Source of the DNA: a virus
IMG/VR virus record: IMGVR_UViG_3300044726_000053
Coordinates: 1 to 39,939 of that record
Strand: one strand, 5' to 3'
DNA length: 39,939 bases
Both the position numbers and the translations under genes were made by a program. The notes below the pieces were generated by a model. The model saw only the letters and a list, made by a program, of their open reading frames with translations, was not told the DNA's origin and did not search any database. Positions 8,193 through 38,611 of this stretch are shown here, one piece after another (within the stretch, counting starts at the first letter, position 1; every line of letters starts with the position of its first letter).

Positions 8193-9086
8193 CTACTCAA
8201 TCCACGGGTTACTGGCTCCGTCACCCATCCACGCACCCACCTGAGTCGTTGACGGCGCTGACGGCTGACGATACAGTGTCTCCACCGCGACCTGAGACAC
8301 CCGCCCCGGTGTGGCCGGAAGATGCAACGACTCCACCGCCACCTGTGACACCCACGCTCTGGCCACCGCCACTTGGAGCACTTCGACGGCATACTTACTG
8401 ACTCTCGCCTCTGGCAGAATCGGTAACGTCAGAATCTCAACCGCATCCTGCGTAACTCGTGTATCAACTGGCGGGATGGTGCCTACCGCTGGAATAGAGA
8501 TGGCTGAATACAACCACGGGGTGGAAATCGACAGGCCCCACGACATCACGACGGATGCCGCACCCGCTTCCCGACTCCCTGCTGAGTAATGGTCGTTACC
8601 TGTGGCGCTAATGGCCCAGTCTTGCGTCTGTCCTGCCCCCGGCGTATAGACTTGGCTGTTGGCGTTCTGACTCAGGAAATCGAGCACCAGATCGCCAACC
8701 GCACTAGGGATAGTCAGAGACGGCGCGGTAGACGTGGCGGCTGCGGTGGTCAGGTTCTTCGCAAACCCATCGAGGTCCACTCCCGACACGTTGCGTGCAG
8801 CGAGGGCCAACCACTCCGTGCTGCTCAGCAGCGTAGCGACGACGTTTGCCGTGCCTGCCGGTGGATTGGCGAGAAACCACCACTCCTGAGAGAACGCACT
8901 ACCAGTCACACGCCCAATGCGTTCTAAGAGTATGCCTGCGTATGTGACTCTGGAGTATTCCTTAACGTTATCGGAAATAGACGCACACACGTACAACGGA
9001 TCACCCGTTGACGTATGCGGCATCGACAACGATGCGGCACCGCTAGTCAGCCAGAGTTGTGACGTGGTTCCAACAACCGAAGGCAT
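8193..9086 (-). CDS. Tail-associated structural protein with four C-terminal VSQVAVE repeats
   Basis: 297 residues. The N-terminal 200 residues are Ser/Thr/Gly/Ala-rich and beta-like, consistent with a virion jelly-roll or Ig-type domain. From about residue 212 come four repeats of about 17-22 residues with the core R-V-[ST]-[QK]-x2-AVE-[VILST]-L (DTRVTQDAVEILTLP, ARVSKYAVEVLQ, AWVSQVAVESLHLP, GRVSQVAVETLYRQ). Repeats of this type recur at the C-termini of phage tail and fibre proteins. It is the last structural gene before lysis, coupled by TAATG to the gene upstream. Exact role is unknown. Confidence 0.6.
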   Translation of the reverse strand: MPSVVGTTSQLWLTSGAASLSMPHTSTGDPLYVCASISDNVKEYSRVTYAGILLERIGRVTGSAFSQEWWFLANPPAGTANVVATLLSSTEWLALAARNVSGVDLDGFAKNLTTAAATSTAPSLTIPSAVGDLVLDFLSQNANSQVYTPGAGQTQDWAISATGNDHYSAGSREAGAASVVMSWGLSISTPWLYSAISIPAVGTIPPVDTRVTQDAVEILTLPILPEARVSKYAVEVLQVAVARAWVSQVAVESLHLPATPGRVSQVAVETLYRQPSAPSTTQVGAWMGDGASNPWIE

Positions 9087-10183
9087 TAGCTCACCCGCTT
9101 GTAACCAAACTCAGCAGCATTGAACCCGGCCTCAGTCCACTGTGCTCCGGTCCCCGGATTCACCTGAGCCATCTGCGTGGCAAAGTTATACGCCACGGAT
9201 GGAGCGAACGCGGCTCCCACATAATCTACGCCACTATGGCGTATGACGTGGGCTAACGTGCAGACTCCGGCATCCACCTTCCTCATGCTCAAATTGTGCT
9301 GCACGCCAAGCACCACACCACCCACCACAGGGGCATCCTGCGTGACGAACGTGTCCACCGCGCCGACTGTGTTGGTGGCGTTGTAGTCGGTATCTCCGTT
9401 CTCCTGTGCCTCATCCACCATCAGGGCATTGTCAGTTCCAGACAAAGGCGTCCATGCCGATGAAGCACCCTCTGCCGTAGGCACTCGGACATCACACCGA
9501 CAGTCCCCCAAGAAGTCATTCCATGGTGCCGCCCCAGACCCGTCACACACCCACAAGTCATCGAAATCCCATTCACCCACAGCGGTATTGGCTGACGTAA
9601 TGCCGCCAATCAGGAAGTCATCCCAACCAACCGTGGCGGCATTTCGCGTGTTCTGAGCCGTCAAAGACAACCATGACAGGCCATTCACCAAAAGGTCCAC
9701 GGTTCCAACCGCAGGATCGATGAATACCTTAACTTGGATGTGATGGCTCACGCCAAATGTCATCACATTCGTAGTCGTCCCTAAAATGGTTGAGCCTCGT
9801 AGCACGCTAATCGAACCATTCGTATTGATTCGGAACCACACCTGATGGATACCGGCCACCCGCAAGGAGATCAGGCTGTTGGAATCATTGCCGTTTGGAG
9901 TGTAAGTCGTGCCTATCTTGAGTCCTGAAAAGGGCAACGTGACAGCCGTAAATGAAAACCCCGCGATGAACACGTTTCCACTAGCAGGCAACGCCTTGAC
10001 CATCCACCGAGATACAGCAGAACCACCAGCGTTCCCCGTAGCATTCGCTCGATAGGCGTTGGAACCATGTCGTCCAGTGCCCACAGAGATGGTGGGTGGA
10101 CCCTGCGTGCCGGGAACCTGCCACTTCTTGATGAAGTCTGCCGTGACGTAATGGTCAAATGAATCCATGAACAGCAGGGCCAT
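9086..10183 (-). CDS. Tail/fibre protein, LamG-like fold candidate (paralogue A)
   Basis: 365 residues from the ATG at 10183 (MALLFMDSFDHY), preferred over an upstream in-frame start that would lack homology to the neighbour. It is paralogous to the next gene upstream over its full length: a shared MALLF-x-DSFDHY start, KW at about residue 20, central GNVFIAGFSF, and a nearly identical GSGAAPWNDFLGDCR...PTAEGA...W-PLSGT block. The beta-rich N-terminal half resembles a concanavalin/LamG-type sandwich, which in phage tails often binds glycans. It is TAATG-coupled to the following gene. Confidence 0.65.
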   Translation of the reverse strand: MALLFMDSFDHYVTADFIKKWQVPGTQGPPTISVGTGRHGSNAYRANATGNAGGSAVSRWMVKALPASGNVFIAGFSFTAVTLPFSGLKIGTTYTPNGNDSNSLISLRVAGIHQVWFRINTNGSISVLRGSTILGTTTNVMTFGVSHHIQVKVFIDPAVGTVDLLVNGLSWLSLTAQNTRNAATVGWDDFLIGGITSANTAVGEWDFDDLWVCDGSGAAPWNDFLGDCRCDVRVPTAEGASSAWTPLSGTDNALMVDEAQENGDTDYNATNTVGAVDTFVTQDAPVVGGVVLGVQHNLSMRKVDAGVCTLAHVIRHSGVDYVGAAFAPSVAYNFATQMAQVNPGTGAQWTEAGFNAAEFGYKRVS

Positions 10184-10191
10184 ATAGCTCC

Positions 10192-11277
10192 TTACGACGC
10201 TCTGGTGAAGCCAAACTGTGCCGCGTTGTATTCCGCTTCCGTCCATGCAAGTCCAGTGGCCGGGTTAGTCTGAAACAACGCCATCCGATACGAATACGTC
10301 CCACCGGGATTGATCACCGGCACTGGGTAGTTGGTTGAGCCAATACGAGCCACCGCCGCCAAATTACACAACCCAGCTTCTTCTTTGCGGGTAAACAGCG
10401 ACACTTGAACCGCTGAGGGATCGGACCCGGCTACGGGTGAATCGGGCACGTCATACGTGTCCGTATGCCCCGGCGTCAATGACGACACGTAAGACGTATC
10501 ATTGTCAGCCGGTATTTCCTTCACCATGTCGGCGTTATTGGTCCCTGACAGCGGTGCCCAATCCGACACGGCACCCTCTGCGGTAGGCATGCCCACTTCT
10601 ACTCGGCAATCCCCGAGCAGATCGTTCCACGGGGCGGCTCCAGAGCCGTCACTGAGGTAGAAGTCATCGTAGTTCCATTCCTGCTGTGTGCCTGCTGACA
10701 GACGTTGACGACTATAAAACCCAGTCCATACTGCCGTGGCTCCCACCTGTGTCGTCACGCCAGTCAGATTCAGCGCAACACTCCCGTTGATCCTGATGAC
10801 TACAGACCCAGCCGCTGCGGCTGCGATTACCACCTTCGTCTCGATATAGGCATACACGCCTTGCGTGACAGCAGTAATCGTCGTTCCGAGAGCCGTGCTA
10901 CCACACAGCGCCGTGATCGTGCCGTCGCCGTTGATTCTGAACCAGACGTGGGACACGCCGATGTTCTGCACAGCAGAGATAACGCAGGCTGAGCCTTCCG
11001 ACGTGGAACTTGGATTCAAGCCAAGAGCCGTCACGCATTTGAATGCAAATCCGGCAATGAACGTATTGCCAGACGTGACGAACTGCTTCTCCAGCACATG
11101 GCCGATACCGATCAACGTGCCGCGATGCGTTCGCATCTTCAGCCCGTAGGTACCACGGCGTCCCAACCCGGCCACGATGTCAGAGAAATCAGAGCTAGTG
11201 CCACCCGCGTACATCCATTTGCTCGTCAACTGAGCATAGTTGTAATGGTCAAAGCTATCAAAGAACAATAACGCCAT
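10192..11277 (-). CDS. Tail/fibre protein, LamG-like fold candidate (paralogue B)
   Basis: 361 residues, the tandem duplicate of the following gene. It shares the DSFDHY N-terminus, the NTFIAGFAF strand, the HVWFRIN strand, and the SDGSGAAPWNDLLGDCRVEVGMPTAEGA segment (split here), plus a C-terminal NPATGLAWTEAEYNAAQFGF motif also found at the end of paralogue A. Divergence is spread along the sequence rather than being recent. Probably a minor tail or receptor-binding accessory protein. The ATG has a GGAGATTTTC leader. Confidence 0.65.
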   Translation of the reverse strand: MALLFFDSFDHYNYAQLTSKWMYAGGTSSDFSDIVAGLGRRGTYGLKMRTHRGTLIGIGHVLEKQFVTSGNTFIAGFAFKCVTALGLNPSSTSEGSACVISAVQNIGVSHVWFRINGDGTITALCGSTALGTTITAVTQGVYAYIETKVVIAAAAAGSVVIRINGSVALNLTGVTTQVGATAVWTGFYSRQRLSAGTQQEWNYDDFYLSDGSGAAPWNDLLGDCRVEVGMPTAEGAVSDWAPLSGTNNADMVKEIPADNDTSYVSSLTPGHTDTYDVPDSPVAGSDPSAVQVSLFTRKEEAGLCNLAAVARIGSTNYPVPVINPGGTYSYRMALFQTNPATGLAWTEAEYNAAQFGFTRAS

Positions 11278-27637: not shown

Positions 27638-27669
27638 GGGGGCAGGTGGACACTAGACCACCCACCCCC
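27638..27669 (-). terminator. Hairpin after the tail-tube gene (partial terminator)
   Basis: On the minus strand a 12-base GGGGGTGGGTGG arm pairs with CCACCTGCCCCC across an eight-base loop, followed by TTTCGTA. There are two G-T or mismatched positions and the T run is short, so it is likely to attenuate rather than stop transcription. It lies 17 bases after the stop of the abundant tail-tube gene. Confidence 0.6.
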
Positions 27670-27685
27670 GTTGAACACGTGACGT

Positions 27686-28519
27686 CTAGTTGATCGCGTT
27701 GTCCGGAGCGAACTTCAGCTTCTTGATGCTGAAGTAGTTCGAACCCGCCAGTCGGGTGTCGTCCTTCAGAACCGAACCCTCGATCACGAACTGACCGAAC
27801 GTGTCGGACAGCAGGGCGAGTTCCTTCAGCGGGTCGTTGCTGAAGCGGAACACGTCCACCACAACCGGGCTGTTCGACTCGATGGTGTTGAGACCTTCGA
27901 ACCGCAGCCAGTTGTCGGTGATCGGACGGGTCATGGCCGAGACGAGGAACTGTTCGCCGTACTGATAAGTCGCTTCCAGATCCTCTCCTTCGGGGTCCAC
28001 AGGTGAAGCCGGTGAGAACCCTGCGAAGTCCATCAGGATACCGTCGTTCATCATGATGGAACCCGCATCCGGATTCAGCTTGTAGTCCCACGGCACGGTG
28101 CCGTCCGTGTAGAGCGTCAACGTCGTTCCACCCTGCTTGAGCACCAAGGCACTCACGTCGATGTAGCGGAGCGACGTGACACGACCGGGGAAGCCCTTCA
28201 GTTCTTCGTCCGTCGCCGTGCCAGCCGGGATCATGATGTCATCACCACGAGTGGCTTCTGCGAGGTTCTTCGCGTTCCAGTTCTCCACGGTGATGGAGCA
28301 CGTCACGTTGACTTCGGTCTGGAGTCGGGCGTCAGTGGCCCTCTGGCCGTCCTGTGACCCCTTGTGGTTGACGACGGTTGTGGCAATGCCCAACCGCATT
28401 TCCGGACAGTTGCCGATGGGTCGCAGCCCAATCGGGTTGCCCGTGATGGGGTCACGACGCCCCACCATGATTACGCCTTGGCCACTGAAGTACCAGTTGG
28501 CCGCATCAAAAGTGCTCAT
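27686..28519 (-). CDS. Major tail tube protein
   Basis: 277 residues, GGAG six bases before ATG. Beta-rich with GQGVIMVGRRDPITGNPIGLRPIGNCPEMRLGIATTVVNHKGS near the N-terminus, a signature seen in tail-tube proteins of many siphophages, and further strands VNVTCSITVENW and VVVDVFRFSNDPLKELALL. The place before the G/GT chaperones and tape measure, the hairpin just downstream and the lack of a sheath gene all support the tube protein of a non-contractile tail. Confidence 0.8.
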   Translation of the reverse strand: MSTFDAANWYFSGQGVIMVGRRDPITGNPIGLRPIGNCPEMRLGIATTVVNHKGSQDGQRATDARLQTEVNVTCSITVENWNAKNLAEATRGDDIMIPAGTATDEELKGFPGRVTSLRYIDVSALVLKQGGTTLTLYTDGTVPWDYKLNPDAGSIMMNDGILMDFAGFSPASPVDPEGEDLEATYQYGEQFLVSAMTRPITDNWLRFEGLNTIESNSPVVVDVFRFSNDPLKELALLSDTFGQFVIEGSVLKDDTRLAGSNYFSIKKLKFAPDNAIN

Positions 28520-28550: not shown

Positions 28551-29681
28551 CTAGCGGCCAGCCTTGTTTCTACCCTTGAAGTTCAGGTTGCCACCGCTCT
28601 TGGTGCCCATGCCCTCAGCACCTTCCGGGGGTGACACTTCACCTTCTTCCGGTGGCGACACCACCGAACCTTCCGCCAAGAACTGGAACATGACTTCGTT
28701 GCTGTCGTCTCCGAAGCCCGTCCGCACCTTCACAGGAAGCGGCTCTGACGGACCCTTCCAGACGTCCATGTTGACGCCGGTCGTCAGTTCTTCCGGTGAC
28801 ACGAAGATGGTCGGCTCTTCGTAGCCATTGAACACGATCTTCGAATCCGGCCCGAAGCCCGTGCCACGGACGGTCAAGTTGAAGCTCTCGTCTCCGATGA
28901 CGGCCTGTGCTGGCTCCAGCGAGGTAACTTCCAGCACGTACTCAGGCGGCGACTCCATGTGATCCAGCACGCCGAAGAGCAGCGGCATGGTGGCGGCACC
29001 CGGTGCCTTGTCGTACCAGAGCACCAAGAGCTTCTTCGCGGCCAGAGACACGCTGCTGACGAAGCCTGCGCTGCCTGCCGCCGTGCCGCCTGCGAAGGTG
29101 GCACCAGAGACGGTGACGGCGTTGCCGGTCTCAGTCAGGGTGTAGGCGTTGCCAGACGTTCCCGGCTGACGCACCTTGACGCGGACCACGTTCATGAGTG
29201 GCGGTGAGCCTGCACCAAGCTCCACTGACGCCGTCAGGGTGCTGTCCCCCGACATGATGACCTTGGCCAGCTTCGCGGCCATGTCCACGGGGTCAGAACC
29301 AGATGGGGTGATGTCGGTGGGAACGATGTTGGGGGGTGCGTTATAGCTGGGGTGAACCACCACGTCCTTGAACGTGTACGCCTTGCCGTTCACCGTCACC
29401 TTGTCGCCGTCTACGGCGGTGGCCAGACAGGTGATGGTGGCTTCAGCGTTTCGTCCTTTGATGGAGATGGTGTTCATCGCCACGTCCACCAAATCTGTCA
29501 GGTTGACGACGGCTCCGATGTGATCTTCCGGGTCCATCCCCGGCACCGCAACCACCGTGCCTGCCGCTGCTCCCGTCACGACAGACATTTTCATGCCTTG
29601 GAGTTCGGCAATCGCCTTGGGCAAGGCGTCGGGAATACCCGAGCCACCAAACCCAAGGTTCTGAACATTTACCATACTCAT
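28551..29681 (-). CDS. Structural protein with C-terminal TIG/Ig-like domain
   Basis: 376 residues, AAGGAG seven bases before ATG at 29681. The N-terminal part (about 85-200) contains the recurring phage motif ATAVDGDKVTVNGKAYTF ... DPVDMAAKLAKVIM ... TASV ... RQPGTSGNAYTLTETGNAVTVSGATFAGG, in which a scaffold of short strands precedes GTAGN-like turns. Residues about 250-340 form an IPT/TIG-type Ig domain (VTSLEPAQAVIGDESFNLTVRGTGFGPDSKIVFNG). The tail ends Pro/Glu-rich and basic. Likely a virion surface or tail-decoration protein; lies just before the tail tube. Confidence 0.6.
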   Translation of the reverse strand: MSMVNVQNLGFGGSGIPDALPKAIAELQGMKMSVVTGAAAGTVVAVPGMDPEDHIGAVVNLTDLVDVAMNTISIKGRNAEATITCLATAVDGDKVTVNGKAYTFKDVVVHPSYNAPPNIVPTDITPSGSDPVDMAAKLAKVIMSGDSTLTASVELGAGSPPLMNVVRVKVRQPGTSGNAYTLTETGNAVTVSGATFAGGTAAGSAGFVSSVSLAAKKLLVLWYDKAPGAATMPLLFGVLDHMESPPEYVLEVTSLEPAQAVIGDESFNLTVRGTGFGPDSKIVFNGYEEPTIFVSPEELTTGVNMDVWKGPSEPLPVKVRTGFGDDSNEVMFQFLAEGSVVSPPEEGEVSPPEGAEGMGTKSGGNLNFKGRNKAGR

Positions 29682-29707: not shown

Positions 29708-30505
29708 CTACTCGGCTGCACTGGATACTGTGCCACTCGTTGCACTCAATTGCAAGAGCTTAATATCCCCGAAATCTTTCACCCACTGACGCAAAACAAC
29801 CGGATTAGTCAAAACATACTTAACCTGTTGGTAGCGTGCGTACAAATCACCTTGAGGTCGCACGCTTTTCTTTCGGTGGTAACCATACCACCCGACATGT
29901 TGGGCATAGGGCACCAATGGCCACGCCACTGGAAGCCCTTCCAACACCCGGCAAAACACGCCATCCTGCTCACAATCCGTCTTCGACGGTGGGAATCTCG
30001 TCTTGCAGTAGGCTCGGAGATTACTGAAATACGCCACCTGACAGTGCGGCACGATCAGCCTGAGCATGTCACGCTGAAAACACACCCCCAATGACGCATA
30101 GTGCCCATACTGCGGCTCTTTGACGACGCCGATGCTGCACCCCAATGCCTGATCAGCATGCTGCTGACGGTGCCACAGGAAAAAGTCCGGATGCACCATC
30201 ACGTCATCTTCAATCATGAAGACGTGCTCGGCCTTTGTATGGTAAGCATCCTTGAACGCCATCATCACATTAAAGCTGTTGCCATGAAACGTGTGCGGCT
30301 GGCGATAGATAACCCGAATAGATAGCTGTGGAAACTTCGCAATGACTTGTTCAATTTCATCCCGAGGTGGCATATGTCCAACGTGGGCATCGACATACAC
30401 GACCGTCAAGACGTCCTTGGTGCCATGGCTCTTGGCGATGTGCTCCAGACAGAGCCACAGCATCTCCGGACGGTCAAACGTCGGGACAATCAAGAGGTCT
30501 TGCAC
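29708..30505 (-). CDS. GT-A-fold glycosyltransferase (family 2-like)
   Basis: 265 residues from a GTG start at 30505, overlapping the methyltransferase by 16 bases. It has an N-terminal LLIVPTFDRPEMLWLCLEHI strand-helix, typical of GT-A enzymes, and an EDDV motif (residues 99-102) in the place of the metal-binding DxD, followed by a Phe/Trp/His-rich acceptor region. It would transfer a sugar from a nucleotide donor. It is part of a four-gene sugar-modification block placed between tail-terminator and tail-tube genes. Palindrome copy 9 lies near its 3' end. Confidence 0.7.
   Translation of the reverse strand: MQDLLIVPTFDRPEMLWLCLEHIAKSHGTKDVLTVVYVDAHVGHMPPRDEIEQVIAKFPQLSIRVIYRQPHTFHGNSFNVMMAFKDAYHTKAEHVFMIEDDVMVHPDFFLWHRQQHADQALGCSIGVVKEPQYGHYASLGVCFQRDMLRLIVPHCQVAYFSNLRAYCKTRFPPSKTDCEQDGVFCRVLEGLPVAWPLVPYAQHVGWYGYHRKKSVRPQGDLYARYQQVKYVLTNPVVLRQWVKDFGDIKLLQLSATSGTVSSAAE
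29740..29755. repeat. Dispersed 16-base palindrome, copy 9 (3' end of glycosyltransferase gene)
   Basis: The plus strand reads TTGCACTCAATTGCAA. It is read in the gene as Leu-Gln-Leu-Ser-Ala, a variant of the common reading. Confidence 0.65.
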
Positions 30506-31035
30506 AGCACGCCCACTCCCATCGGGGTCATGTCTTCATGAACGACCTGAGCGTCCACCGACTGGATGAAGTCACGATATACGGTGATCAACTCCGGATG
30601 CGACGGATGAGTCAAGTCATCGAACACCAGTAAGCCACCGGGCAGAAGCAGCTTCCAACAGTCTTCCAGATCCTCTCGGGCACCCACCGCACTGTGATCA
30701 CCATCCACCGTGATCAGATCGAACTGCCCGATGTACTTCTTCAACAGGTCATGCGACGACCCGTTCAAGTACGTCACCGGGCGGGTATATTTCTTCTCCT
30801 GCAACAAGACTTCGATATGCGTCGGCCCACCGAATTGCTCTCCCCCATACTCGCCACCCCACGTATCACACAGGGCCAACCGGTTGGGGAATTGCTCTTT
30901 CAGGATAGTCGCCAGTGAATGCCCGTAGCAGACACCCACCTCTAAGTAGGCGGTAATCCTCCGCTGCTTGGCAATCGATTGCAAAATGTTGTGCAGAGCC
31001 AGATTATGGCCGTGATCAGTGAAAGTTAAGTCCAT
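30490..31035 (-). CDS. Class I SAM-dependent methyltransferase (Methyltransf_24-like)
   Basis: 181 residues. Motif I is YLEVGVCYGHS (30-40), the second acidic strand is LALCDTW, FDLITVDGDHS (105-115) is the family's FD-x-I-D-G-D-H-S signature, and GGLLVFDDL follows. This is the methyltransferase type often found beside glycosyltransferases, where it O-methylates sugars (for example macrocin-type enzymes). It overlaps both neighbours (20 bases upstream, 16 downstream). Palindrome copy 10 lies near its 5' end. Confidence 0.8.
   Translation of the reverse strand: MDLTFTDHGHNLALHNILQSIAKQRRITAYLEVGVCYGHSLATILKEQFPNRLALCDTWGGEYGGEQFGGPTHIEVLLQEKKYTRPVTYLNGSSHDLLKKYIGQFDLITVDGDHSAVGAREDLEDCWKLLLPGGLLVFDDLTHPSHPELITVYRDFIQSVDAQVVHEDMTPMGVGVLCKTS
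30969..30984. repeat. Dispersed 16-base palindrome, copy 10 (5' end of methyltransferase gene)
   Basis: The plus strand reads TGGCAATCGATTGCAA. It is the only copy with a CG centre, making the core perfectly palindromic. It is read as Leu-Gln-Ser-Ile-Ala. Confidence 0.65.
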
Positions 31036-31897
31036 GACGACCTACCAACCCATCCAATGCGACATAAAAAGCCTTCTGGTCCTCTTCGTACTGGTCTCGT
31101 GCCGCCACCGCTAACATTTCCACTTCAAACTCAGACAACGCCGCCACATTCTTCACCGCATTGGCCACGTCCACCGACGACACCTGATGCAACGGAGCCG
31201 CGTGGTGTGGCTTCGTTCCGGTACTCGGGATTCGATATGACGGCACAATCTCGTTCATCGGTGGAGCGTCGGTCGTAATCAGCACTTGCCCGGTGCTCTG
31301 CGACTCATGCAGCACATGGCCATAGCCTTCGTAGGCAGACGGCATCACGTGGCAGAAATGCGAATTCATCAGGTGAATCAACTGCTGTTCAGACACCCGT
31401 CGAGCCGGGACGACATGCTCTCCAATCACCGTCAGCGGCACTCTCGCCAACTGACACCCCTGAATCACCGCATGAGTATTCTTGAATCTGGATTTGCCTG
31501 CGACGTGCAGGAATCTCCGTTCTTTTGGAATTCCCTCACGATACAAGTCTTTGGCAATCCATCCGAGGTACTGACATTTATCCCCCACTTTTGCTCGGAA
31601 AATCCGCTCACAATCATGGGTCTTCGCCAGCACCAAATCCCACTTATACCCGTCCCACCCAGCAAACCACCACTCAGGATGAGGCATCACCCAGTTCTTC
31701 GGAGCCGCCCTGAAGGCTTCAGGGGCGACCACCTCATCGAAGATATTCACATCGGCTGATGGGGCGAGTAAAGGATGGGCATTGAACTGCACTCCCTGCA
31801 CCGAATGCCCACGAGCTTCCAGTGCCTGTTTCAGCAACTCATAATTGCGTTGCAGACCTACGCCGTTCGCTAGATTGCTGACGATATTAAACCGCAT
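31016..31897 (-). CDS. GT-B-fold glycosyltransferase (GT4-like)
   Basis: 293 residues. N-terminal RFNIVSNLANGVGLQRNYELLKQALEARGHSV is the classic GT-B start: a strand, a G-V-G loop and a long helix. A second domain has FLHVAGKSRFKNTHAVIQG, matching the mid-enzyme strand-helix, and MPSAYEGYGHVLHESQSTGQVLITTD, which corresponds to the family's P-S-x-x-E-G-x-G-x-x-x-x-E-A motif that binds the donor nucleotide sugar. Slightly short for the family (usually 350-400). It overlaps the upstream glycosyltransferase by 28 bases. Confidence 0.75.
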   Translation of the reverse strand: MRFNIVSNLANGVGLQRNYELLKQALEARGHSVQGVQFNAHPLLAPSADVNIFDEVVAPEAFRAAPKNWVMPHPEWWFAGWDGYKWDLVLAKTHDCERIFRAKVGDKCQYLGWIAKDLYREGIPKERRFLHVAGKSRFKNTHAVIQGCQLARVPLTVIGEHVVPARRVSEQQLIHLMNSHFCHVMPSAYEGYGHVLHESQSTGQVLITTDAPPMNEIVPSYRIPSTGTKPHHAAPLHQVSSVDVANAVKNVAALSEFEVEMLAVAARDQYEEDQKAFYVALDGLVGRHGLNFH

Positions 31898-32547
31898 GGG
31901 AACGCCGGGGGTAACGCCGTAGGCGGCATCGGTCGGTAGCTGGTCTTGTTGAGAGACTTCTTACTGGTCTGGTAGTCGTGAACTCGGGCCACCATCATCT
32001 GTCCTGCGGGGGCTGTTGGTACGAAACGATGGGCTTCGCGCATGGCCTGCCGAAAGAACCGAATGTCTTCCCCAATCTGAATCGACATGAACGGATGGCT
32101 ACGCCACCAGATCCTGCGGTAACACATCGACGTGCCCAGTGCGAACCGGGCCGGGGAGTGCGGCATGTGCCACTGGTACAGCTTCCCGTCACGCTCATCG
32201 TAGAACAGCATGTCGTGGTAGCCGGTCAGGACGCCGAACTCCCCCAACCGTGTGACCTGATCTGTCACCCTCTCCGGGGCACTCCAATCGTCGGAATCGA
32301 AGTGACAAATGTATTCGCCTCGGGACCAATTCGCACAGGCATTCCGCATGTCCCCCACCGTCAACTTCCCGAAAACCTTCGCATACCGAATGGTGGGATC
32401 GGCAGGAATCAACTTCTCGGTCCCATCATCTCCGTTGTCCACGATGACCAGTTCTTTGTGGGGATATGTCTGGGACTGATAACAACGAATAGCCTGCGGT
32501 ATGAACGCCGCTCGGTTCTTCGTCGGCAGTATGCAGGAAACGAGCAT
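31870..32547 (-). CDS. Family 2 glycosyltransferase (GT-A)
   Basis: 225 residues. MLVSCILPTKNRAAFIPQAIRCYQSQTYPHKELVIVDNG is a textbook GT2 beginning: strand, P-T-x-N-R, helix, then E-L-V-I-V-D-x-G-D-D. The metal-binding motif is FDSDDW (83-88). A region with ALGTSMCYRRIWWRSHPF forms the acceptor side. The first gene of the sugar-modification block; starts two bases after the tail-terminator stop. Its substrate is unknown; a virion protein or host envelope glycan is inferred. Confidence 0.8.
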   Translation of the reverse strand: MLVSCILPTKNRAAFIPQAIRCYQSQTYPHKELVIVDNGDDGTEKLIPADPTIRYAKVFGKLTVGDMRNACANWSRGEYICHFDSDDWSAPERVTDQVTRLGEFGVLTGYHDMLFYDERDGKLYQWHMPHSPARFALGTSMCYRRIWWRSHPFMSIQIGEDIRFFRQAMREAHRFVPTAPAGQMMVARVHDYQTSKKSLNKTSYRPMPPTALPPAFPCGLISSAI

Positions 32548-32549
32548 GA

Positions 32550-33062
32550 CTACTTACAAGCAGGATCGTAGAACGGATGGCGAGGTGGGGTGGTCGGACT
32601 GCCTTCAGAATGCACCATCTGGACAGGCAGGCTCCATCGCTGCACCCAACACACGGCTCCGGACCTAAGAGCCGCTGGGGCTTCCACCATAAAGTGCCAG
32701 AAGTGGTTGGTTACTGTGCTTCGCTGGCCAATGAACTGGAACCGCATGGCGTCCAGATACTCGATGGCTCGGACCTTCTTCTGAAGCGTGTTGTGAACTT
32801 CGTCGCCACGTTCCACCAACACTAGACCAAGCACAATCTCACCCGACATACCGACTCGGGCAGTGGGTCCACCTTCACTCATCGACCGCATGCCTTCGTA
32901 GACGATGCCCACGGCTGGATAGGACCGCACACCCTTCAGCACATCGAGTAGGTCGTTCTCATCGTAGGCAATGACCACCTTACCCGTCAGGTTGACCGGT
33001 GGGGCGTTCAATCGCAGCAACCGTGTGCTGGCTTCGTCCAGTACCTCAGTGAGCTTGCTCAT
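32550..33062 (-). CDS. Putative tail terminator / tail completion protein
   Basis: 170 residues: N-terminal helix (SKLTEVLDEASTRLL), then VVIAYDENDLLDVLKGVRSYPAVGIVYEGMRSM and a second block GEIVLGLVLVERGDEVHNTLQKKVRAIEYLDAMR, as in small tail-terminator or Gp37-type proteins that cap the tube and join it to the head. The call rests on fold pattern and place among connector genes. It overlaps the 53-residue zinc-ribbon gene by 17 bases. Confidence 0.5.
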   Translation of the reverse strand: MSKLTEVLDEASTRLLRLNAPPVNLTGKVVIAYDENDLLDVLKGVRSYPAVGIVYEGMRSMSEGGPTARVGMSGEIVLGLVLVERGDEVHNTLQKKVRAIEYLDAMRFQFIGQRSTVTNHFWHFMVEAPAALRSGAVCWVQRWSLPVQMVHSEGSPTTPPRHPFYDPACK

Positions 33063-33207
33063 CGTCTACCCGATCAACAATGGGATCGTCTGGCCGATCA
33101 TCAATGAAGCAAGGTCCACACGTCTTACAAATCCCTACACCCGGATGATCACAGTCTGGATCACGCACCACATCAGTGCCGCCGCATGTCGTGCAAAATG
33201 CAATCAT
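33046..33207 (-). CDS. Small zinc-ribbon protein (53 residues)
   Basis: A 53-codon gene on the minus strand. It begins MIAFCTTCGGTDVV and has C5-x2-C8 and a second set C27-x2-C30-x2-C33 with C19-x-H21 between, then an acidic Asp-rich tail. Its ATG overlaps the stop of the upstream virion gene as ATGA, and its end overlaps the next gene by 17 bases; this tight packing supports it being real. The cysteine pattern implies a zinc ribbon. Role unknown. Confidence 0.6.
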   Translation of the reverse strand: MIAFCTTCGGTDVVRDPDCDHPGVGICKTCGPCFIDDRPDDPIVDRVDDEQAH

Positions 33208-33668
33208 GGCGTCTGGCCTGCCTTCAACCCTTGAGCAATCCTTCGGATGATGACTCGCGCCATCAAGTCAAGGTCTTCATTGGCGAAACCTAAGAACACA
33301 CGCGCTGGGAAGCCGATACCGAACTGATGCTTCTCCGCATACGAAAATCCTTGGGGCGACGTCACGTTCGTGCCGATGGCTCTCGTATGCTGGCTCTCCG
33401 CATACAACTGGATGCTACGAAACAGCTTGCCCGTATCGAACAGCGTCCCACCACCCCGTCCGCTTCGCGCTCTGCGGAGTGCCGCTTGAGAGACCGGCCA
33501 CGTCGATCCATCCGGAGCTTGTTGAATCAAGAATCGAGCACGTAACCGGTTGTAAATGACGGCTGCACCTTCATCCAGAATCTTCACTGGATCAAGGGCG
33601 TCGGCCAGTCCCGCGATGGACTTCTCCAACGCAGGCTGTCCAGTGACAGTGACGGTCAGCAGCTTCAT
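33204..33668 (-). CDS. Phage virion morphogenesis protein (Mu gpG / neck-type)
   Basis: 154 residues. RARFLIQQAPDGSTWPVSQAALRRARSG, LFDTGKLFRSIQLY, AIGTNVTSPQGFSYAEKHQFGIGFPARVFLGFANEDL are the family's features: P-D-G-x-x-W, L-x-x-T-G-x-L-x-x-S-I, V-G-T ... Y-A-x-x-H-Q-x-G, and P-A-R-x-F-L-G. Proteins of this type complete the neck or tail during head-tail joining. Coupled by ATGA on both sides with small genes. Confidence 0.75.
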   Translation of the reverse strand: MKLLTVTVTGQPALEKSIAGLADALDPVKILDEGAAVIYNRLRARFLIQQAPDGSTWPVSQAALRRARSGRGGGTLFDTGKLFRSIQLYAESQHTRAIGTNVTSPQGFSYAEKHQFGIGFPARVFLGFANEDLDLMARVIIRRIAQGLKAGQTP

Positions 33669-37876: not shown

Positions 37877-38611
37877 CTACTTCTTCACCGGCTGCACCGG
37901 AACCGGTGGCTTATCTCCACCGGGCTTCGTGGTGGCTTCAGGCGGTGACGTCTCGCCCTGTGGCGGCACGCCCAACAGCCAGCCGTAGGTCGGAGACCAG
38001 TACCACTGGTAACCGGCCAACGGACCCGGCTCACCAATGGGTTCGAACCCCGGTGCCTCTGGCGGCGATCCTCCACCCGGCCATCCACCACCCGGTGGCT
38101 GCGGCGGCTGCGGCCACGGATATCCCGCGATGGGATGCGACGGGAACGGCGGCAAGCCGTGATCCGGTCGTGGTTGCCAACCGCCAGCCCACGGTGGAAG
38201 CTGGATCGGGTGCGTCGGGAAGCCCGGTCCCGTTGACGGATACGGCGGCTGACCACCGGGGCCACCACTACCGGGCGGGTAGTAGATCGGGTGCTCCGGA
38301 CGCGGTTGCCACCCCCCGGCCCACGGGGGCAACTGGATCGGATGTGTCGGAAATCCGGGTCCGGTGCTTGGATACGGCGGCTGACCTCCACCGGGTGGCC
38401 ACACGCCACCGGGCGGTATCACAATCGGGTGGCTCGGAAATGGCGGCAGTCCTTGATCGGGTCTGGGTTGCCATCCACCCGCCCATGGCGGTAGCTGGAT
38501 CGGGTGTGTGGGAAAACCCGGTCCTGTGCTCGGGTAAGGTGGCTGACCGGGCACCGATGGTTCATCGGTGAACGTCAGCATTCCAACAAACATGACAGGG
38601 CGTGTTGACAT
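37877..38611 (-). CDS. Pro/Gly-rich repeat protein with three identical 30-residue units
   Basis: 244 residues. After a 20-residue N-terminus, a 30-residue unit beginning GQPPYPSTGPGFPTHPIQL occurs three times without change (22-51, 76-105, 120-149), twice followed by GLPPFPSHPI. A Trp/Tyr-rich end (GYQWYWSPTYGWLLGV) and a Pro/Lys tail complete it. The copies differ at many third codon positions, so the amino-acid identity is kept by selection or gene-conversion that is old. GAGGAG precedes ATG. Proteins of this composition recur near phage capsid genes; I suppose a virion decoration, unproven. Confidence 0.6.
   Translation of the reverse strand: MSTRPVMFVGMLTFTDEPSVPGQPPYPSTGPGFPTHPIQLPPWAGGWQPRPDQGLPPFPSHPIVIPPGGVWPPGGGQPPYPSTGPGFPTHPIQLPPWAGGWQPRPEHPIYYPPGSGGPGGQPPYPSTGPGFPTHPIQLPPWAGGWQPRPDHGLPPFPSHPIAGYPWPQPPQPPGGGWPGGGSPPEAPGFEPIGEPGPLAGYQWYWSPTYGWLLGVPPQGETSPPEATTKPGGDKPPVPVQPVKK

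Follow-up and report, generated by a model that had tools for sequence, protein, structure and literature searches.

In the mycobacteriophage Corndog, an O-methyltransferase and three glycosyltransferases (GTs) are encoded in the portal-to-protease interval, and the authors of that study suspected capsid modification (PMC4351075). In Corndog-type phages of cluster O these enzymes are the O-methyltransferase gp35, the GTs gp36-37, and the N-acetylglucosaminyltransferase gp38; PMC11600133, citing Freeman et al. 2023, states that both the capsid and the tail tube are modified by them. For F1 phages, whose GT genes lie near the 3′ end, capsid glycans are mentioned in PMC11256854, also citing Freeman et al. 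2023, and PMC12619734 (citing Freeman 2023) places mycobacteriophage glycans at the C-termini of capsid and tail-tube subunits. Optimus, an Omega-like phage of cluster J, encodes a run of sugar enzymes (gp12-gp17 and gp21) in the order GT-kinase-MT-GT-GT-GalT, where MT is a methyltransferase.

Here we analyse a block of three GT genes and one MT gene in a virus record of 39,939 bases (the window), a fragment whose long relatives are 112-120 kb. Likened by description, Corndog resembles the block in having one O-methyltransferase and three GTs encoded consecutively within the structural operon; it differs in the siting of the set between portal and protease and in its mycobacterial host. Optimus resembles the block in placing its sugar-enzyme run between the major capsid and head-tail connector genes and differs in having more GTs, plus a kinase. 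In a profile comparison of a 12-protein set, Optimus gp15 was a remote relative of GT-A1, the first enzyme of the block (E 5.7e-10), and the Optimus MT and other GTs had no detectable relationship to the block. Two features of virion-glycosylation cassettes are present: several GTs together with a methyltransferase, and a siting among virion genes as in clusters O and J. A preliminary description of this DNA held that this is not a usual place for such genes, which is incorrect since Corndog, Omega-like phages such as Optimus, and the Streptomyces phages JustBecause and Frankenweenie all carry them among virion genes. In the part of the literature covered, we found no cassette of this kind described for phages other than actinobacterial ones.

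Judged by the capsid, the closest isolates are the Stenotrophomonas phages DLP3 and DLP5 (Delepquintavirus), whose major capsid protein is 67-69% identical and whose head-tail gene order matches that of the window. Their slot lacks the block, and their sugar genes lie elsewhere in the genome; the GT of the DLP3 sugar gene cluster was linked to LPS by the phage's authors. Capsid similarity to DLP3 and DLP5 leads us to guess at a gammaproteobacterial host. A capsid scan of bacterial and archaeal genomes returned only a 32% relative, and no GT-B relative was found in such genomes with the profile patterns used. The block also differs from Gtr-type seroconversion cassettes, which carry a membrane GT, a GtrA-type flippase, and GtrB: the four block enzymes have no transmembrane-like windows and no membrane gene was seen within the block.

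Four overlapping enzyme genes among virion genes

All four genes lie on the minus strand. GT-A1 (32547..31870) encodes a Glycos_transf_2 family glycosyltransferase of 225 aa (PF00535, 1.8e-16), followed by GT-B (31897..31016), a Glycos_transf_1-like glycosyltransferase of 293 aa (PF00534, 6.3e-7; phrog_2170, 7e-8), MT (31035..30490), a class I SAM-dependent methyltransferase of the Methyltransf_24 family with 181 aa (PF13578, 4.9e-17), and GT-A2 (30505..29708), a GT-A glycosyltransferase of 265 aa with a GTG start (PF13641, Glyco_tranf_2_3, 7.2e-8). Every one of these Pfam matches exceeds the curated cut-off, and consecutive genes overlap by 28, 20, and 16 bases. The four overlapping GT-A, GT-B, Methyltransf_24, and GT-A enzymes that the preliminary description placed at 29708-32547 are therefore confirmed, with exact coordinates and agreeing Pfam families. 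In an alignment of 11 phages the DxD-like motif HFDSDDW of GT-A1 is invariant; GT-B has a conserved PSAYEGYGHVLHE-like motif, MT the motifs EVGVxxGxS and VDGDH, and GT-A2 an EDDV that is invariant among the carriers compared. Purifying selection acts on all four genes: comparing the window with L037 or L028 gives a dN/dS of 0.08-0.18 (0.08-0.14 for GT-A1), synonymous distances being saturated for some more distant pairs. Because dN/dS is low and the gene order is kept in 11 distinct phages, the block is not a chance arrangement.

The predicted structure of GT-A2 is a confident GT-A fold (pLDDT 85.6) that is shared with POMGnT1 (Z 18.3, rmsd 2.9, 203 aligned) and GnT-I (Z 17.9, rmsd 3.0, 199 aligned), both of which act on glycoproteins. 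GT-A2 is 18-19% identical to these enzymes and lacks their extra domains. Many polysaccharide GTs come next, at Z 15-16, and the fold therefore tells neither the sugar nor the acceptor.

The block starts 2 bases past a tail-terminator-like gene (32550..33062, minus strand), which forms the upstream border of the slot and lies between the block and the gene for the Neck1 tail completion protein (33204..33668, minus; PF05069, 2.8e-11; phrog_26, 7.7e-22). On the other side, the gene for an Ig-like/IPT protein of 376 aa with an IPT/TIG fold (28551..29681, minus) is a virion-type gene that separates the block from that for the major tail (tube) protein (27686..28519, minus; phrog_807, 7e-59), which itself has an Ig-like domain. 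Of the setting first described, between tail-terminator and tail-tube genes, the tail tube is thus solid; the terminator is assigned by its position alone, its own match being to phrog_26611 of unknown function, and the Ig-like gene intervenes. Secure assignments among the neighbours are Neck1, the major tail protein, the pre-tape-measure protein, and the capsid family phrog_1623.

One hairpin that matches the terminator consensus alone was found 3′ of the capsid gene and another 3′ of the tail-tube gene (27638..27669, minus strand). This consensus-based scan, which is weak evidence on transcription, showed no further one in the interval separating these two, and hence none from the block to the tail-tube gene. 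Clear GGAG-type ribosome sites precede the Ig-like and tail-tube genes and those of the block genes are weak, as would be expected if the enzymes were made at a low level from a virion operon. Elsewhere in the window, positions 37877-38611 near the protease gene encode a proline-rich protein of 244 residues that contains a long internal repeat (QPPYPSTGPGFPTHPIQLPPWAGGWQPRP) and has no PHROG match; local GC content reaches 65%, and among the loci compared the protein is confined to the window and to contigs nearly identical to it. Positions 9086-11277, downstream of the tail genes, hold two tandem phrog_2448 genes (E 4e-42 and 3e-32), a duplication of unknown function.

Distribution of the block and exchange of its inner enzymes

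Searching IMG/VR with GT-B, the tail tube, the capsid, and GT-A2 as queries yielded 11 distinct phages, including the window, whose block occupies this slot and follows the order GT-A1, GT-B, MT or substitutes, GT-A2. At least six relatives lack it. GT2/GT4 matches are confined to the block in five long carrier contigs (68-120 kb), and the six to seven contigs without the block that were searched gave none. Carriers come close to making up a single clade; on the capsid tree the presence and absence of the block needs two changes. L050, which has no block, branches within the carriers, for which a loss is the simplest account; in the block's place, between the tail-terminator-like and Ig-like genes, L050 has a Tad2-like (Thoeris anti-defence 2) gene of 81 residues (L050:4353-4598; PF11195, 4.3e-26). 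The slot therefore also accepts host-directed cargo unrelated to the virion.

Carriers differ in their inner enzymes. For MT there are two forms, 33-36% identical to each other, the second accompanied by an extra gene of ~155 residues matching Methyltransf_11, and L045 has a different Methyltransf_24 protein at this place. In L046 a CgeB-like GT (PF13524) and an FkbM methyltransferase (PF05050) replace MT and GT-A2. Between L046 and L047 the capsid is 99% identical, other flanking genes 86-91%, and GT-A1 89%, with GT-B at only 46%; going by these comparisons, the inner enzymes are replaced between the two phages. Such swaps between close relatives lead us to predict a different glycan in each. 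Genes for HNH-type endonucleases lie in or beside the cassette of three carriers (L037:14345-14932, assigned by sequence alone without a family match; L040:17530-18099; L041:13901-14344) and are a possible driver of cassette exchange.

The module is also found with other structural genes. In L086 (a 93-kb contig) and L087 (76 kb), the order GT-A1, GT-B, MT, MT2, GT-A2 is kept, flanked by different capsid-region genes (phrog_13692) and with a head-tail adaptor gene (phrog_442) directly after. JustBecause and Frankenweenie encode adjacent GT-B and GT-A2 homologues (31-35% identity) in the interval from capsid to tail genes; the Frankenweenie pair is immediately upstream of the annotated major tail gene. 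In these phages and their kin (about 185-200 kb) the pair lies upstream of tail genes as it does here; it differs in having no GT-A1 or MT beside it and in the structural genes around it. Judged from sequence, three virion operons of different origin retain these enzymes with head-tail genes. Further contigs carry GT-A2 relatives in larger glycan gene clusters (L088, L089, and L090), together with GT-B in L088 and L089; in L089 a head maturation protease and a DNA transfer protein of phrog_1745 are encoded near the cluster.

A C-terminal extension of the Ig-like protein usually accompanies the block

In relatives without the block, the core of the Ig-like protein ends at KKLLVLWYDK-like residues. 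A C-terminal extension beyond this point is present in 8 of 9 carriers and in none of 6 non-carriers with complete genes, a count that leaves out the non-carriers L051 (gene runs off the contig) and L062 (no recognisable homologue). The comparison with relatives lacking the block that had been suggested as a check could thus be made, and it separates their Ig-like proteins from those of nearly all carriers. The extension measures 51-181 residues across the eight carriers, about residues 225-376 in the window's protein; six of the eight have an IPT/TIG domain, then a mostly Pro/Gly-rich tail. The IPT/TIG part of the window's model aligns to 2cxk and 3mqi with a TMt of about 0.78. Confidence is low for the core (pLDDT 64, pTM 0.38), so the IPT part alone is interpreted. 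At 0.22-0.29, the dN/dS of the Ig-like protein ranks near the top for the virion genes compared.

We hypothesize from this pattern that the Ig-like protein would be the main glycan acceptor, with the tail tube as an alternative candidate. The role is kept as a hypothesis because relatedness confounds the association and because L045 is an exception, having the block and no extension. The motif [ST]PPE, of which the window's extension has three copies (0 of 20,000 shuffles) and which is also found in L028, L040, and L025, was rejected as an acceptor motif: it is missing from L026, L037, L041, and L047, and an unrelated proline-rich protein also contains it.

Discussion

The block is probably a virion-directed glycosylation cassette. 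We infer that it would be expressed late, in the same gene run as the head-tail connector and tail genes, with weak or overlapping ribosome sites keeping the enzymes at a low level beside structural genes whose translation starts strongly. Host nucleotide sugars would serve as substrates for GT-A1, GT-B, and GT-A2; no match to nucleotidyltransferase (PF00483) or epimerase (PF01370) families was seen in carrier contigs, whose completeness was not stated, and the long relatives are among those lacking them. The product of the three GTs may be a short glycan attached to a virion protein soon after its synthesis, with the Ig-like/IPT protein and/or the tail tube as the likeliest acceptor; one sugar of this glycan may be capped or tuned by the methyltransferase. 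Recombination between relatives would swap GT-B, MT, the extra MT, and GT-A2 while the first gene, GT-A1, stays, and the glycan would change. Candidate benefits are particle shielding, stability, and the tuning of adsorption.

The preliminary description had left two targets side by side, virion proteins and host surface glycans, and of these the virion is the better supported by slot, linkage, and the lack of transmembrane segments. We favour it because the module has been retained in independent virion operons (the window's lineage, L086/L087, and the Streptomyces phages), and because the extension that goes with the block is C-terminal, as are the known glycan positions on mycobacteriophage capsid and tail-tube subunits. 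Several observations weigh on the other side: the extension correlates with phylogeny and L045 has the block without it, the L050 slot holds cargo unrelated to the virion, and the sequences of the block enzymes show a distant relationship (GT-A1 and Optimus gp15) or none to the mycobacteriophage enzymes tested. Late action on LPS, capsule, or another surface polymer, blocking re-adsorption to debris or superinfection and leaving virion proteins untouched, would agree with PDB sequence relatives that include polysaccharide and LPS-type GTs, with the host-directed Tad2-like gene in the slot, and with DLP3, of the nearest isolate group, where the sugar cluster lies elsewhere and its GT is linked to LPS. 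We consider this unlikely, since the enzymes lack a transmembrane segment and the block a membrane gene or a nucleotide-sugar gene of the tested families, and since it leaves unexplained both the head-tail siting in three phage lineages and the linkage to an extended virion protein.

Phage GTs are best known for the glycosylation of DNA bases. DNA glycosylation by phage GTs is mentioned in passing in PMC12619734, and PHROGs labels an MT-related family 'DNA methyltransferase'. Hypermodification of phage DNA against restriction, through glycosylated 5-hydroxymethyl bases or similar, is nevertheless very improbable here: MT belongs to Methyltransf_24, not to a DNA methyltransferase family, siting among tail genes is unexpected for DNA-modifying enzymes, five carrier contigs (completeness not stated) have no gene of the thymidylate-synthase-type hydroxymethylase family (PF00303), and the carrier contigs gave no Tet/JBP match (PF12851), though the control in that search stayed silent. 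It is just as hard to see the block as a passenger in a recombination-prone slot, acting on a small molecule or a host protein, for example in counter-defence. The Tad2-like gene of L050 and the HNH-type endonucleases of L037, L040, and L041 fit a passenger, but a multi-enzyme order conserved across different virion operons does not, and a full glycan-building set is atypical for counter-defence.

Four things are new with respect to the known systems: the lineage, the portability across virion operons, the swapping of inner enzymes, and the extension of a neighbouring virion protein in linkage with the block. A bolder proposal, which we advance only tentatively, sees in the block a portable module for glycotype switching in phages that are not actinobacterial; the C-terminal IPT/Pro-rich extension of the Ig-like protein would have evolved as its dedicated acceptor, and recombination of the inner enzymes would give close relatives different particle glycans. 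The virion glycosylation reports that we found concern actinobacterial phages, and the cassette described here would, if the proposal is true, generalize the trait. Glycotype switching by inner-enzyme recombination would then be comparable to serotype switching in bacteria, and pairs such as L046-like and L047-like phages, with flanking virion genes 86-99% identical and different inner enzymes, would make the role of particle glycans outside an animal immune system testable.
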